From positions 248,001 to 312,000 of the forward strand of contig JAGYIR010000011.1 of NCBI GenBank assembly GCA_018402525.1: a stretch of 64,000 bases of DNA. The letters run 5' to 3'. The notes under the pieces are model-generated. The model had not been told where the DNA came from. It saw only the letters and a list, made by a program, of their open reading frames with translations, and ran no database searches. This document shows, piece after piece, positions 35,392-56,354 of the stretch; the stretch's first letter is position 1, and every line of letters begins with the position of its first letter. Origin of the DNA: Crocinitomicaceae bacterium (lineage in GTDB: Bacteria; Bacteroidota; Bacteroidia; Flavobacteriales_D; Crocinitomicaceae). Position numbers and translations under genes: made by a program.

Positions 35392-35514
35392 AATTTATTC
35401 AACTAGAATGTATTATTACCTAAATTTAAAAAAAATGATTGAGATTAATAAATTATTTGAAGTTTTACATATCTTTGCGCTTCAATTCAGCGGGTAACTG
35501 GTGAAATTTGAAAA

Positions 35515-35640
35515 TAAATGGTGGTTGTAGCTTCCCGATACGCCACTCACATTCGACAAGCTCAGTGCAAGTCGTTTTGATCGGGACGGGCAACTTCGCC
35601 ACAACGAATTGCTAGAAGAAATTAAATGGTGGTTGTAGCT
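35515..35640 (+). repeat. 18-nt duplication of tRNA-His 5' end flanking a hairpin
   Basis: The 18-nt sequence TAAATGGTGGTTGTAGCT occurs at 35515-35532 and again at 35623-35640, where it is the start of tRNA-His. Between them is an inverted repeat with 7-bp arms, TCCCGAT at 35533-35539 and ATCGGGA at 35580-35586, whose loop contains the short motif TTCGACAAGCTCAG also seen near 53.4 and 55.2 kb. The arrangement looks like the trace of a small element that inserted into, or recombined with, the tRNA 5' end and left a partial copy. Confidence 0.8.
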
Positions 35641-35702
35641 CAGTTGGTTAGAGCATCGGTTTGTGGTACCGAGGGTCGCCGGTTCGAGCCCGGTCTTCCA
35701 CC
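35628..35702 (+). tRNA. tRNA-His (GTG)
   Basis: A cloverleaf can be drawn: G-1 (35628), acceptor GTGGTTG / CTTCCAC, D arm GCTC-GAGC, anticodon stem TCGGT / ACCGA with loop TTGTGGT giving anticodon GTG, 5-nt variable loop, T arm GCCGG-TTCGAGC-CCGGT. The extra G at -1 facing C73 is specific to tRNA-His. Unusually, acceptor positions 5-68 and 6-67 are T-T mismatches, see findings. CCA is not fully encoded. Confidence 0.9.
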
Positions 35703-35811
35703 CAGAAGGATTGTCAGAAATGATGATCCTTTTTTTTTCTAAGATTTTACTTCCGGCGACCCTAGGTCGTACCTCGAACTATACGAGCCTCCAGCTCGTG
35801 TTCTCGTCTTC
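35694..35811 (+). repeat. 118-nt repeat copy 1, overlapping tRNA-His 3' end
   Basis: Copy 1 of a repeat that begins with the last 9 nt of tRNA-His (TCTTCCACC) and continues to the GTCTTC at 35811; it matches 35922-36041 over its whole length except for 2 extra nt and two or three substitutions. It contains CCGGCGACCC (35753-35762), the reverse complement of the tRNA's variable/T-stem segment GGGTCGCCGG, and the hairpin ACGAGC-CTCCA-GCTCGT. Confidence 0.85.
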
Positions 35812-35921
35812 CAATGCTGCGCATTGTCTGGTTCCCTGTCTGGCGACAGGCAGGGAGCCCTAACTTGCTCTGTTGAACTTCCCGTTCAAGTCGCTGCGCC
35901 TTCGAAAGCAGTGCTTTCTCT
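35812..35921 (+). other. Hairpin-rich spacer between the two tRNA-His-linked repeats
   Basis: No gene is seen here. Successive hairpins are visible: AATGC-TGC-GCATT, then a 13-bp stem 35830-35842 / 35847-35859 closed by a GCGA tetraloop with two G-T pairs, then TTGAAC-TTCCC-GTTCAA (35873-35889), then GAAAGC-AGT-GCTTTC (about 35904-35918). The loops TTCCC and flanks match those in the next copy while stems differ. Confidence 0.7.
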
Positions 35922-36126
35922 TCTTCCACCCAGAAGGATTGTCAGAAATGATGATCCTTTTTTTGTTTCTAAGATTTTACTTCCGGCGACCCTAGGTCGT
36001 ACCTCGAACTATACGAGCTTCCAGCTCGTGTTCTCGTCTTCGAAAACTTCGTTTTGTCCTTCGTCTTTTCGGACTTCCCGTCCGAGCCTCAGTCTTCGAA
36101 AACTATCGTTTTCTCTTCTTCCACCC
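35922..36126 (+). repeat. 120-nt repeat copy 2 plus hairpin spacer and third TCTTCCACCC
   Basis: Copy 2 (35922-36041) repeats the tRNA 3' end sequence TCTTCCACC, the inverted tRNA fragment and ACGAGC-TTCCA-GCTCGT. It is followed by hairpins GAAAAC-TTC-GTTTT, CGGAC-TTCCC-GTCCG (36070-36084) and GAAAAC-TATC-GTTTTC, then a third TCTTCCACCC (36117-36126). The 20-mer GAGCCTCAGTCTTCGAAAAC (36084-36103) recurs in opposite orientation at 55314-55333. No coding capacity is supported. Confidence 0.85.
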
Positions 36127-53139: not shown

Positions 53140-53517
53140 AATTTCAGTTTAATAATATTAAGAATTCTTACATTCTTGAAATTGTCATACATATTATAAC
53201 GTAGCAGTTTATAAAAGGATAACAAAGAATAGAAATATAATAAAAATAAATATACAAATCTATTCCACCCAAGTTACACCCAACTTGGTCGTTTTTCTCA
53301 AATCTTTTACACCCCCCATTTTACTGTTCAAAATCACTCCGTATTTCATACTTTTTTAGCCCATAAACTGATACAATTAGTGTTGGCTGAGCGAAGTCGA
53401 AGCCAAACCTATATAAACAGGGACTTTCAAAAAAAAAATCACCCAAGGTGCGACCAACTTGGGAAAAATCCCCATCAAACTGCCACAATTTTGCCAAGAA
53501 CACTTAAAACAAATCAT
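53140..53517. promoter_or_regulatory. Noncoding region with two related inverted repeats and a REP-like motif
   Basis: No gene is seen. A 23-nt element CACCCAAG...CCAACTTGG occurs at 53266-53288 and, with five changes, at 53440-53462; each contains an inverted repeat (CCAAGTT/AACTTGG and CCCAAG/CTTGGG). The second copy is 55 nt upstream of the HTH gene start. A REP-like hairpin TTGGCT-gagcgaagtcga-AGCCAA lies at 53383-53406. Confidence 0.55.
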
Positions 53518-53817
53518 ATGGCAGCAAACATTATAACAGCTGAAGACCTAGAAGAATTCAAATGGGATCTTCTAGCAAACATCAAAGAGTACCTCGATAA
53601 AAAAGACGGTAAAAATGAAAACCAACAACACGAAGACAAGGTTTGGATCAAATCCCATCAAGTGCAACGCATGTTGGGAATTTCTCCTGGCACACTGCAA
53701 ACACTGCGCTTGAACGGTACCATCCCCTATTCAAAAGTTGGTGGAGTATTATTCTACAATAAGGCTGATATAGCCAGAATTCTAGATGACAATATGCGCA
53801 ATCGAATTATTGACTAA
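53518..53817 (+). CDS. Excisionase-like helix-turn-helix DNA-binding protein
   Basis: A 99-residue HTH protein: EDKVWIKSHQVQRMLGISPGTLQTLRLNGTIPYSKVGGVLFYNKADIARILDD has the MerR/excisionase-like HTH plus wing (HTH_17). An N-terminal coil (NIITAEDLEEFKWDLLANIKEYLDKK) may dimerise. In Bacteroidota mobile elements paired genes of this kind control excision. The start at 53518 (MAANII) is chosen because the two inverted-repeat elements lie upstream and an in-frame extension would run through the noncoding repeats. A second HTH gene follows after 25 bases. Confidence 0.8.
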   Translation: MAANIITAEDLEEFKWDLLANIKEYLDKKDGKNENQQHEDKVWIKSHQVQRMLGISPGTLQTLRLNGTIPYSKVGGVLFYNKADIARILDDNMRNRIID

Positions 53818-53842
53818 TCACAAACAATTAAAAACTTACAAA

Positions 53843-54127
53843 ATGAAATCTACAGTGAAAAAAATGCAGCAAATTCTTGAAGAAATGAAAACCATCAAAA
53901 AAGAGGTCGTAATGCAAGAACCTATCAAAGATGCCTGGATTGATGGCGTTGAAGTTCAATCAGTTCTACACATCTCCGAAAGGACCTTATACCGCCACAG
54001 AAAATCAGGCAGACTTCCTTACAGCCGTATCCGAGGAAAAATCTATTACAAAAAATCAGACATCAGGGAATTACTTGAAAAAAACTATCGAATAGAAAAA
54101 CCCAAATGCTGTTGCTGTTGCAGGTAA
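53843..54127 (+). CDS. Second HTH protein with a five-cysteine tail
   Basis: A 94-residue HTH protein: AWIDGVEVQSVLHISERTLYRHRKSGRLPYSRIRGKIYYKKSDIRELLEKNY, the same fold as the preceding protein. An N-terminal helix (MKSTVKKMQQILEEMKTIKKEVVMQ) probably makes a dimer. The tail is KPKCCCCCR, with five consecutive Cys, very unusual for a DNA-binding protein. Probably a tandem duplicate of the previous gene that diverged. I take the ATG at 53843 as start because it matches the length of the neighbour. Confidence 0.75.
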   Translation: MKSTVKKMQQILEEMKTIKKEVVMQEPIKDAWIDGVEVQSVLHISERTLYRHRKSGRLPYSRIRGKIYYKKSDIRELLEKNYRIEKPKCCCCCR

Positions 54128-54257
54128 TTAATAATCAAACCTTAATATCAAAACCCAATGACAGCAATAACTATGTTAATCCTTTGGATCTCTAAGAGAA
54201 TTAAAAAGCGCTCGCAAAGAGCATCATCGAAGTGTAAATCCTCTAAAAAGAATTGAT

Positions 54258-54498
54258 AATCCCACGAAGAAGAATCCCCAACCGGCCTAGGAAACATCCG
54301 CAAGAAAAGCCGAATAAGTGCCGGGAAGTGCACCCTTGTTTGAGCTCAGCTGTCTTGAGCCATGAAAGGATCAAGGAAACAGCGTTTGCGAGTTTGGGTA
54401 AACGACCAGAGCGTTTCGTTGCTTTTCGAGGACGGTTTCCAAGCCTTGAATTTCTTTTTGGTTTCGTTTTTCTTGTTTCAAGACAAGAAAAAGGAAAG
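54258..54498 (+). repeat. Structured leader repeat, copy A (241 nt)
   Basis: First copy of a long direct repeat. It lies just upstream of the DnaD-like gene (ATG 15 nt after it) and is about 97 percent identical to copy B in the shared parts. It contains three predicted hairpins: alternative pairings GCTCA (54344-54348) with TGAGC (54356-54360), or CTTGAGCC (54354-54361) with GGATCAAG (54368-54375), and TTCTTGT-ACAAGAA (54470-54476, 54483-54489) close to the gene start. Apparent reading frames inside are not likely coding. Confidence 0.8.
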
Positions 54499-54512
54499 TA
54501 ACAAATACAATT

Positions 54513-55223
54513 ATGAAAGTAAACTACATAAAACAACTAGAAGCTGTCACCCTAAGAATGTCCGACGACACGCGACTAAATTCTAGTCATGTAAGCATGT
54601 ATTTGGCTTTATTCTTAATCTGGAACCATCACCGTTTTCAAAACCCACTTTCTATAAATCGTTCAGAAGTTATGAAAGTTTCCAAAATAGGTTCAGCGAA
54701 CACTTACACCAGGTGCTTAAAACAATTGGACGAATGGGGGTACATCCAGTATCTCCCTTCCTTCAATCCCTTGCGAGGTAGCTTGGTCAACCTGTACACA
54801 TTTGATAATAGTAGTGATAAAGGTACTGATAAAGCTAGTGGTAAGGCTAGTGATTATAGTTCTGTAATAGCTGTGCGACCTTCTATAAACAACTTAAACA
54901 ATAGAAACAATAAAACTGATAAACCTTTAAAAGGAGTAAAGGGAAAATTTACAAAACCATCCATTCAAGAAGTCATTGATTTTTTTTCTGAAAAGAAACA
55001 CGATCAAGTGGATGCCGAAAAATTCTTCAATCATTTCGAATCAAACGGTTGGTTGGTGAGTGGAAAAACACCAATGAAAAATTGGCAAGCTGCAGCGAGA
55101 AATTGGATGATCAATTCCGAGAAATTCAACTCATCAAGTAATTCCACCGGGTCCCTGAGCCAGTCGAAGGGCGCGGGACATCTAAATGTCAATCAAAACA
55201 AAGATTATTCAGTCCCACTGTAA
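54513..55223 (+). CDS. DnaD-like replication initiation protein
   Basis: A 236-residue protein. The N-terminal part (residues 20-95, RLNSSHVSMYLALFLIWNHHRFQNPLSINRSEVMKVSKIGSANTYTRCLKQLDEWGYIQYLPSFNPLRGSLVNLY) is a winged-helix replication-protein domain, and the C-terminal part (VDAEKFFNHFESNGWLVSGKTPMKNWQAAARNWMIN) is the C-terminal domain found in phage and element replication organisers. The Ser/Asp-rich linker is low complexity. A REP-like motif (55153-55171, CCCTGAGCCAGTCGAAGGG) encodes part of the C-terminus. Together with the DnaC-like gene it probably loads the replicative helicase on the element or phage origin. Preceded by leader copy A. Confidence 0.72.
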   Translation: MKVNYIKQLEAVTLRMSDDTRLNSSHVSMYLALFLIWNHHRFQNPLSINRSEVMKVSKIGSANTYTRCLKQLDEWGYIQYLPSFNPLRGSLVNLYTFDNSSDKGTDKASGKASDYSSVIAVRPSINNLNNRNNKTDKPLKGVKGKFTKPSIQEVIDFFSEKKHDQVDAEKFFNHFESNGWLVSGKTPMKNWQAAARNWMINSEKFNSSSNSTGSLSQSKGAGHLNVNQNKDYSVPL

Positions 55224-55253
55224 TCCAAAATCCACAACAATGAAAAAAATCCA

Positions 55254-55548
55254 AATCCCACGAAGAAGAATCCCCAACCGGCCTAGGAAACATCCGCAAG
55301 AAGAGAAAACAACGTTTTCGAAGACTGAGGCTCCTTCAGGAAGAAGGAAAAGCCGAGGGACGAATAAGTGCCGGGAAGTGCACCCTTGTTTGAGCTCAGC
55401 TGTCTTGAGCCATGAAAGGCTCAAGGGAACAGCGTTTGCGAGTTTGGGTAAACGACAAGAGCGTTTCGCTGCTTTTCGAGGACGGTTTCCAAGCCTTGAA
55501 TTTCTTTTTGGTTTCGTTTTTCTTGTTTCAAGACAAGAAAAACGAAAG
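55254..55548 (+). repeat. Structured leader repeat, copy B (295 nt)
   Basis: Second copy, 996 nt from copy A at its start. Compared with A it carries a 54-nt insertion near 55303-55356, which holds the GAAAAC-AAC-GTTTTC hairpin and the 20-mer 55314-55333, and the CCTTC-AGGAA-GAAGG hairpin (55333-55347), both related to the tRNA-His zone. The CTTGAGCC (55404-55411)/GGCTCAAG (55418-55425) stem is perfect here. It ends 23 nt before the DnaC-like ATG. Confidence 0.8.
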
Positions 55549-55570
55549 GTATAATTTAAAATCCTTCATC

Positions 55571-56197
55571 ATGTTAGACAAATGCTATACTATAATCGAC
55601 AATTACCGTCAATACGACTTCACTAAATGCCTCCAATACCTCAACTATTTAGGAAAGGAAAAATACGGCCCAAAATTCAAAATCCACACTTCCGATCGGG
55701 AGCTGATTTATAAACTTATTGTCTACGCTATTCGCGATGAAGAAAACTGCGCGAAGTACGAAATGGATCTCAACAAAGGAATTCTGTTGATAGGTCCAGT
55801 CGGTTGTGGCAAAACCTCCCTCCTAACCTTACTCAACGAATTTTCCTATCCCCATCAACGGTACCAGGTCAAAAATACGCGACAAATAGCGACTGAATTT
55901 CACAAGGATGGTTTTGAAATAATTCACCGCTATGGCCGCAGGGAGAAAATTATTTGTTTGGATGACCTTGGCGTGGAACAAAATATGAAGCATTATGGAA
56001 ATGAGTGCAACACCATCGGCGAAATCCTACTGCACAGGTATGACATGCATGTCAACTACCAAATTGTTACACATGCCACAACGAACTTAAATGCTGAAGA
56101 ACTGGAAAAATTGTACGGGAATCGAGTGAGATCAAGGTTAAGATCGATGTTTAATTTGATTTCATTTCCAAATACCGTTGAGGATAAGAGGAAATGA
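55571..56197 (+). CDS. DnaC-like P-loop ATPase
   Basis: A 208-residue ATPase with Walker A GPVGCGKTSL and Walker B IICLDDLG, plus sensor-like THATTNL and the DnaC/IstB-like ATPase order: KGILLIGPVGCGKTSLLTLLNEF, NTRQIATEFHKDGFEI, LLHRYDMHVNYQIVTHATTNLNAEELEKLYGNRVRSRLRSMFN. It would load the DnaB-type helicase for an element-encoded replication system, matching the DnaD-like gene upstream. I start it at the ATG 55571 (MLDKCYT) since the 53-residue upstream extension is only the translation of leader copy B. Complete and standard in size. Confidence 0.82.
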   Translation: MLDKCYTIIDNYRQYDFTKCLQYLNYLGKEKYGPKFKIHTSDRELIYKLIVYAIRDEENCAKYEMDLNKGILLIGPVGCGKTSLLTLLNEFSYPHQRYQVKNTRQIATEFHKDGFEIIHRYGRREKIICLDDLGVEQNMKHYGNECNTIGEILLHRYDMHVNYQIVTHATTNLNAEELEKLYGNRVRSRLRSMFNLISFPNTVEDKRK

Positions 56198-56354
56198 AAT
56201 TTCCGAAGAAGAGCAAACGAAGTTTGTGAAGACGAACAACAACAAACGTTAGAGCGGAAGTTGTGAGGTAAGCATAGGCGAACTCGCGCCGTAATGCGAA
56301 GGACTAAGTGAAACTTTCGAAGAAGACCAAAAGGGGAAGGCTACAGTTTCATTT
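56198..56354. other. Noncoding stretch with hairpin modules
   Basis: No gene is seen. It holds CAAAC-GAA-GTTTG (56214-56226) flanked by GAAGAAGAG and TGAAGAC, the same format as the hairpin modules near tRNA-His read in reverse, and a second GAAGAAGAC tract near 56315. Confidence 0.55.

Follow-up and report, generated by a model that had tools for sequence, protein, structure and literature searches.

The DNA behind the tRNA-His gene of the window (the whole 64,000-nucleotide stretch analysed here, from a Crocinitomicaceae genome) is probably a nested array of a non-autonomous, REP-like mobile palindromic element, which is restricted to this family and has accumulated at this place. The gene itself (anticodon GTG) was located by ARAGORN and Rfam at positions 35629-35703 of the plus strand (RF00005, 57.1 bits), the strand on which all features of the array are given. 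A first-pass annotation of this locus had reported the tRNA tail TCTTCCACCC at 35694, 35922 and 36117, which an exact search bore out; the window holds no further exact copy, and three sites with one mismatch lie elsewhere. Checking of the positions in the window confirmed that the features are present as it had described them. Its "118-120-nt tandem repeat" is correct as to the shared length, about 115-120 nt, but not as to the period: the tails are spaced by 228 and 195 nt, so that 118-120 nt is the extent of the shared part. Downstream of tails 1 and 2, identity is 100% over 43 nt and 92% over 99 nt. The two units differ by 2 nt in the length of a T run and are nearly alike as far as the linker CTCGTCTTC, after which they diverge. 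When the alignment is read by eye, the 15-nt hairpin past the linker shows six differences, four of which make up two complete base-pair exchanges, and the remaining shared stretch has two mismatches besides the 2-nt difference in the T run.

Tails 1 and 2 are directly followed by hairpins resembling intrinsic terminators (35704-35733 and 35932-35961), which had not been annotated before. The terminator of the functional tRNA-His gene, with a stem of 13 pairs and its T run, covers 35704-35738; the terminator copy behind tail 2 (35922-35931, an exact 10-nt repeat of the tail) has a like hairpin and covers 35932-35966, and tail 3 (36117-36126, again an exact 10-nt repeat) has no terminator. As was noted in the first pass, CCGGCGACCC at 35753 is the reverse complement of GGGTCGCCGG. 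This inverted piece of the variable loop and T stem forms the left hairpin of unit 1 (35753-35770, inverted repeat I2), and a second one lies at 35983-35997 (inverted repeat I3); the arm 35668-35682 is 93% complementary over 15 nt both to 35753-35767 and to 35983-35997. Since the terminator stands directly behind the tail, the inverted piece sits past it. The remainder of each unit, which had also escaped annotation, is a chain of short hairpins from a dispersed family, scored here with the covariance model R1 (see below). Unit 1 contains a core two-hairpin element of the TACCTC..CGTCTTC type (35768-35833, 70.7 bits). A degenerate core element follows (35859-35925, 39.9 bits), and between the two an unrelated second small palindrome (35834-35856) can be read within T-loop-like sequence of the pseudo-copy; a related palindrome exists elsewhere in the genome (L003/L038). 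The core element of unit 2 (35998-36058, 65.1 bits at C7:283998-284058) differs on alignment from the unit-1 copy mainly in the second hairpin, and it is followed by a core element of the CCTTC..CTCAGTCTTC type (36054-36120, 75.5 bits), the top match of R1 in the genome. The three core elements other than the degenerate one belong to the training set of the model. The 522-nt stretch as a whole folds far better than shuffled sequences (z -8.0, 0 of 100 shuffles).

Two further features were seen at or near the arrays. On the 5' side of the gene (35510-35640), a second copy of the first 14 nt of tRNA-His and its leader (23 nt, 96%) lies 108 nt upstream; the two copies enclose a palindromic sequence of another kind, and the arrangement mirrors the events at the 3' end. 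Other small dispersed palindromes, of the types CCTGCCTGTCGRCAGACAGG, CCCGATAGCTATCGGG and TTCGACNNNGCTCAG are nested in or near the same arrays (window 35834-35856; L206; L035), twice inside T-loop-like sequence.

When the tRNA-His stretch was used as a query, matches were obtained in the window genome and its relatives behind tRNA-Pro and 5S rRNA genes, at tRNA-Met and SRP RNA genes, and in plain intergenic DNA. The core is about 60 nt long and consists of two hairpins joined by GTCTTC. In 24 aligned copies it starts with CCTTC or TACCTC, continues with a hairpin of two stems, outer and inner, which is bulged on its 5' side alone and whose loop is often TTCCC, and then passes through CTCGTCTTC or CTCAGTCTTC (a linker of the form CTC(A)GTCTTC) into a second hairpin of 5-6 pairs, followed by TCT. 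Among these hand-picked copies, paired cells reached 84.4% against 60.8% in shuffles, and covariation was 0.627 against 0.205. Changes on both sides were found in 13 of the 14 pairs of the core stems, the sequence varying freely but in pairs, and the covariation signal was lost when the partner column was shifted by 1-3 positions. Most of the 24 copies had been selected by a script for a hairpin after the linker, a selection that favours the second stem; the first hairpin is therefore the more independent evidence. R1, which was built from this alignment, reached E 1 or better at seven places of the window, and at five of these E was 4.3e-10 or less. Besides those in the array, dispersed copies were located on the minus strand at 55298-55363 (72.9 bits) and 56206-56272 (53.9 bits), both of which were in the training set.

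The first of these dispersed copies, placed by alignment within the repeat 55254-55548, shows that the core moves as a discrete unit, at one resolved site. The same repeat is present without the element on the plus strand at 54258-54498 (aligned at C7:302258-302306 and 302311-302498), and the two repeat copies are 97-100% identical except at one place, where the copy at 55254-55548 has about 58 extra nucleotides replacing 4 nt. These extra nucleotides correspond to one two-hairpin core on the minus strand, and no target duplication is visible at this insertion. This was the only empty site found within the genome. The duplicated repeat of about 240 nt has several ORFs beside it (53380-56197): two small ones are HTH-like, one may be of replication type and one encodes a DnaC-like ATPase, an arrangement that by eye suggests a resident mobile element.

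The distribution of the core is that of a family-restricted element. At E 0.01, R1 was positive in 40 of 80 genomes, including the window genome, and all positives fall within one family, f1 (40 of 49 genomes), with none among the 31 genomes from other families of the order. A class-wide search at E 1e-4 returned 2 of 295 genomes, both from f1. Named relatives of a neighbouring gene, Fluviicola sp. XM-24bin1 among them, identify this family as Crocinitomicaceae, to which the window genome belongs. Within the genus, the number of copies per genome ranges from 0 to 42. Since arrays of this kind are found in many independent genomes, an artefact of a single assembly was rejected. A phage origin was also considered and dropped, as R1 gave no convincing carrier on at least 144 viral-contig loci obtained from two pattern scans, with four matches at E 0.01 or better and a top match of 29.6 bits at 67% GC.

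The position of the element relative to RNA genes was analysed at 93 sites, derived from 128 matches in 94 sources, with L035 dropped as a duplicate of L179 and L041 counted as one site though it comprises two places. These are the best-scoring listed R1 matches plus those of the window genome, with G028 (42 matches, in arrays on several contigs) left out, and therefore not a random sample. RNA genes were called with ARAGORN and Rfam in 60 sources and with ARAGORN only in the remainder. Among the matches listed, the 3' end of an RNA gene was found within 600 nt of the nearest element at 37 of the 93 sites (30 tRNA, 4 5S rRNA, 2 SRP RNA and 1 tmRNA), the distance between gene and element being 57-118 nt in 29 of the 37 and the element having the orientation of the gene in 35. 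When the loci used for model building were excluded, 26 of 77 sites were RNA-linked. As an expectation, about 0.6% of the window genome lies within 600 nt behind a tRNA (32 tRNAs, 3.157 Mb). The element is thus strongly enriched behind RNA genes, in gene orientation.

The proposal that an element targets the 3' end of tRNA-His is supported as to a preference for tRNA 3' ends and not supported as to specificity for tRNA-His: the RNA-linked sites lie behind genes for tRNA-His, Gln, Lys, Asn, Arg, Ser, Pro, Met, Leu and Val, 5S rRNA, SRP RNA and tmRNA. The first-pass annotation had itself named, as an outcome that would speak against it, the presence of the repeat at many places unrelated to tRNA-His, and this is largely what was encountered: among the matches listed, 56 of the 93 sites are not preceded by a recognised RNA gene, a number that includes L231, whose tRNA lies on the opposite side, as well as at least three sites on short contigs where fragments of RNA genes were recognised by eye (L204, L205 and L050). 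Of the 56, 4 fall within an ORF of at least 100 aa, 20 have co-oriented genes on either side, 10 convergent ones and 4 divergent ones, and 18 are unclassed.

Copies of the gene's own tail accompany the element at other loci as well. At 16 of the 37 RNA-linked sites, the terminal 12 nt of the gene are present once more within 900 nt, with at most one mismatch, compared with 0 of 37 in a control with shuffled tails, and the extra copy is usually at the right edge of the element. At the other 21 sites no copy of the 12-mer was detectable; the window locus is among them since just the last 10 nt are kept there. The 133 nt that directly follow tRNA-His in G003 are found 334-466 nt after tRNA-His in G029 (77% identity over 134 nt). 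Between the gene and this flank, G029 has two units, each ending in the tRNA tail, and the terminator adjoining its tRNA-His gene differs from that of G003. This pair of genomes provides the clearest evidence for a putative insertion, with one well-supported displaced flank. An empty-site comparison of G020 with G023 points in the same direction over 36 nt, resting mostly on a recurrent terminator type. At tRNA-Gln, the flank is contiguous in G016 (115 nt) and G019 (108 nt) and displaced in G024 and the window genome, a comparison which again depends mostly on a terminator type common to several loci. Each of the two genes upstream of tRNA-His is conserved in 16 of 22 relatives and the two genes downstream in the window in none of the 22, counts which are lower bounds because the flanks are of unequal length. 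The DNA behind tRNA-His is a hotspot. Of the rolling or slipped recombination suggested for this locus, a tandem duplication of the tail-containing unit, by slippage or unequal exchange, is supported, and some tail copies could be explained by tandem duplication alone. We also observed identical terminator sequences behind different tRNA genes in different species, as if swapped between RNA genes.

The element shares features with several known repeats. REP, BIME and REPIN sequences of the GTAG type, associated with RAYT transposases, are short, extragenic, palindromic, dispersed, mosaic and lineage-specific, and are interpreted as non-autonomous mobile DNA (PMC2817692). The present element is likewise short, extragenic, palindromic, dispersed, mosaic and lineage-specific, with 4 of the 56 sites away from RNA genes inside a long ORF and 18 unclassed. 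In contrast to GTAG REPs, it combines two dissimilar hairpins, which keep the same order and are joined by GTCTTC, strongly prefers the 3' ends of RNA genes and varies in number independently of Y1 genes; the GTAG tag occurs anywhere in 6 of 123 distinct copies, and a single one of 12 Y1 loci has an R1 match nearby. CGTC-tagged palindromic repeats, among them RPE-4 and RPE-6 of Rickettsia and dRS3 of Neisseria, occur in five phyla including Bacteroidetes, have one 8-9-bp stem whose first pairs are AT, a loop of 4-5 nt and a CCA tail, and are mostly arranged as head-to-head dimers with no associated transposase (PMC3733652). The element is also palindromic and carries CGTC in the linker of about a third of its copies (CGTCTTC in 43 of 123 distinct copies), but TTC stands between CGTC and the stem, CAGTC is present in a similar number of copies (CAGTCTTC in 45 of the 123), and a tag directly at an 8-9-bp stem, first pairs of AT and a CCA tail were not seen. 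Because it differs from the former in tag and RAYT association and from the latter in tag position, stem and tail, the element is REP-like in kind, yet outside the GTAG REPs and the CGTC repeats as described (PMC3733652). No earlier description of it was found in the open-access full-text literature, which does not prove that none exists.

The 178-bp repeats of E. coli tyrT, which encode rtT RNA, are tandem units behind a tRNA, each beginning with the tRNA 3' end; they are transcribed and are not known outside one tRNA-Tyr locus. The present units are likewise arranged in tandem behind a tRNA gene and start with its 3' end, and they differ in being dispersed over many RNA genes and in lying behind a terminator. 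The RtT family is present in Rfam, and a search of the locus against all Rfam families up to E 1 returned tRNA only and no RtT. BOX elements of pneumococcus are modular strings of hairpins near genes and are similar to our element in this description, which is the level at which they were compared; they are not known to prefer RNA genes, in contrast to the element studied here.

The left side of the core at tRNA loci is usually a hairpin made of that tRNA's own sequence. It reads CCGGCGACCC..GGTCG in the window, inverted CCTCGGTAC followed by direct GTACCGAGGGTCG in G029, and an inverted T loop followed by CGAGCC at tRNA-Gln. These hairpins fit a core situated inside a second tRNA copy, the left remnant of which has turned palindromic. 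A conserved antisense function does not fit, since the part of the tRNA that is inverted changes from species to species. Among 1633 cells, the non-standard hairpin cells were 26 G-T and 51 A-C, from which a preference for the opposite strand had at first seemed to emerge; this was abandoned, as 25 of the 51 A-C cells belong to a single outer pair, perhaps not a true one, the two kinds being otherwise equal in number, and the claim is therefore limited to the absence of a G-T excess. A tRNA control was set aside for its poor alignment, 159 of 648 cells being neither standard, G-T nor A-C. Without a G-T excess in the hairpins, nothing indicates that selection has acted on an RNA strand. That the DNA works as a transcribed RNA, whether as tRNA antisense, as a processing signal or as an rtT-like transcript, is thus very improbable, despite the co-orientation at 35 of 37 sites and the strong fold predicted for a read-through RNA: a terminator precedes the element, the inverted piece varies between species, G-T is no commoner than A-C and Rfam recognised only the tRNA. 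On the first three of these grounds, antisense or read-through function was rejected as the main reading; pairing of a read-through transcript back onto the tRNA, as had been suggested for this locus, is unlikely to be a function, and looks incidental. A plain duplication of the tRNA tail, by slippage or unequal exchange and without any mobile element, would account for the near-identical stretches of the window units and for similar units in several other arrays. As a complete explanation it is refuted, and we give it hardly any weight, because the same core is found at many unrelated loci and genomes and a pair of sites with and without it exists; as a contributor it is likely.

Two further explanations concern the machinery that would move the element. 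Mobilisation of the kind known for GTAG REPs, through a resident RAYT/Y1 HUH transposase, would agree with the hairpins, the extragenic location, the lack of a target duplication at the single resolved insertion and the presence of Y1_Tnp (PF01797) genes in 42 of 80 relatives, but the number of elements does not follow that of Y1 genes (Spearman -0.02, p 0.90, 34 genomes of the genus), and 12 of the 19 genomes of the genus with five or more elements have no Y1 gene. In addition, an R1 match was found near 1 of 12 Y1 loci, a subset of the many Y1 loci listed, and in the window genome other inverted repeats, unlike the studied element, flank the two longest Y1 genes (L300 and L301, on C5 and C7). 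RAYT mobilisation was accordingly disfavoured, and we regard it as quite improbable. A retro-element was disfavoured too, most carriers being without reverse transcriptase: RVT_1 (PF00078) was detected in 9 of 40 genomes and was absent from the window genome, G018, G019, G021, G023 and G024. Islands inserted by tyrosine recombinases integrate at the 3' end of a tRNA, restore this end and displace the old tail. The arrays could accordingly be scars of larger elements inserted in this way, the units of about 150-230 nt being attachment ends left after the loss of cargo. The restored tRNA end and displaced flank of G029 relative to G003, with a new terminator adjoining the gene, resemble such integration, and tyrosine recombinases scoring below the TIGR02249 cut-off are present in 50 of 50 relatives, so that they are a possible mobiliser, though not an indicated one; the integron integrase itself was found in none of the 50 above the cut-off. 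In G004 (L041, 560-9741), moreover, ten accessory genes are enclosed by two 167-nt repeats, 99% identical and 9015 nt apart, which contain the tRNA tail, the terminator and the element. Against this, the units are too short for an integrase, the core of about 60 nt also inserts alone, lacking a tRNA tail and away from RNA genes, no cargo separates the units in the arrays that were read, and Pfam detected no integrase in the ten cargo ORFs of G004. We consider this explanation possible but rather unlikely.

In the G004 locus, all ten accessory genes point in the direction of tRNA-His, and one intergenic stretch is attC-like by eye. In G028 (L193, L194 and L195) there are cassette-like arrays, in which the genes are unrelated, share for the most part one direction and have a long repeat behind each of them; in our own reading these long repeats resemble integron attC sites, and most of them contain the hairpin element, one without it lying near 6748 of L193. 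No integron integrase above the NCBIfam cut-off was found to go with these arrays.

For the preferred reading, an array of a REP-like mobile element, the following course of events can be proposed. The element would insert at or near the 3' end of an RNA gene, and the end would be restored as in tRNA-targeting integration; at several loci the 3' end is again present beside the element, so that the functional gene is intact and the older tail and flank are downstream. The array would then lengthen through tandem duplication of whole units and exchange of modules, and the inverted tRNA piece may represent palindromic remodelling of the tRNA sequence next to the insertion, with no conserved role. 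As a guess, the mover might be a recombinase that acts in trans on DNA hairpins. More tentatively, and with a low probability in our estimation, Crocinitomicaceae may possess an insertion route specialised in the 3' ends of structured-RNA genes, in which a host recombinase would work in trans on folded DNA and move hairpin units that bring a fresh 3' end and terminator, push the old end downstream and sometimes bound cargo, as in the 9-kb region of G004 and the arrays of G028.

Short palindromic repeats for which no transposase is known have long been puzzling. The structure of the present family is defined, its host range narrow and its target preference clear, and nature offers comparisons of sites with and without it, so that its movement is directly testable. 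The tRNA-His locus shows how a tRNA gene can gain tandem copies of its tail and terminators without being broken.
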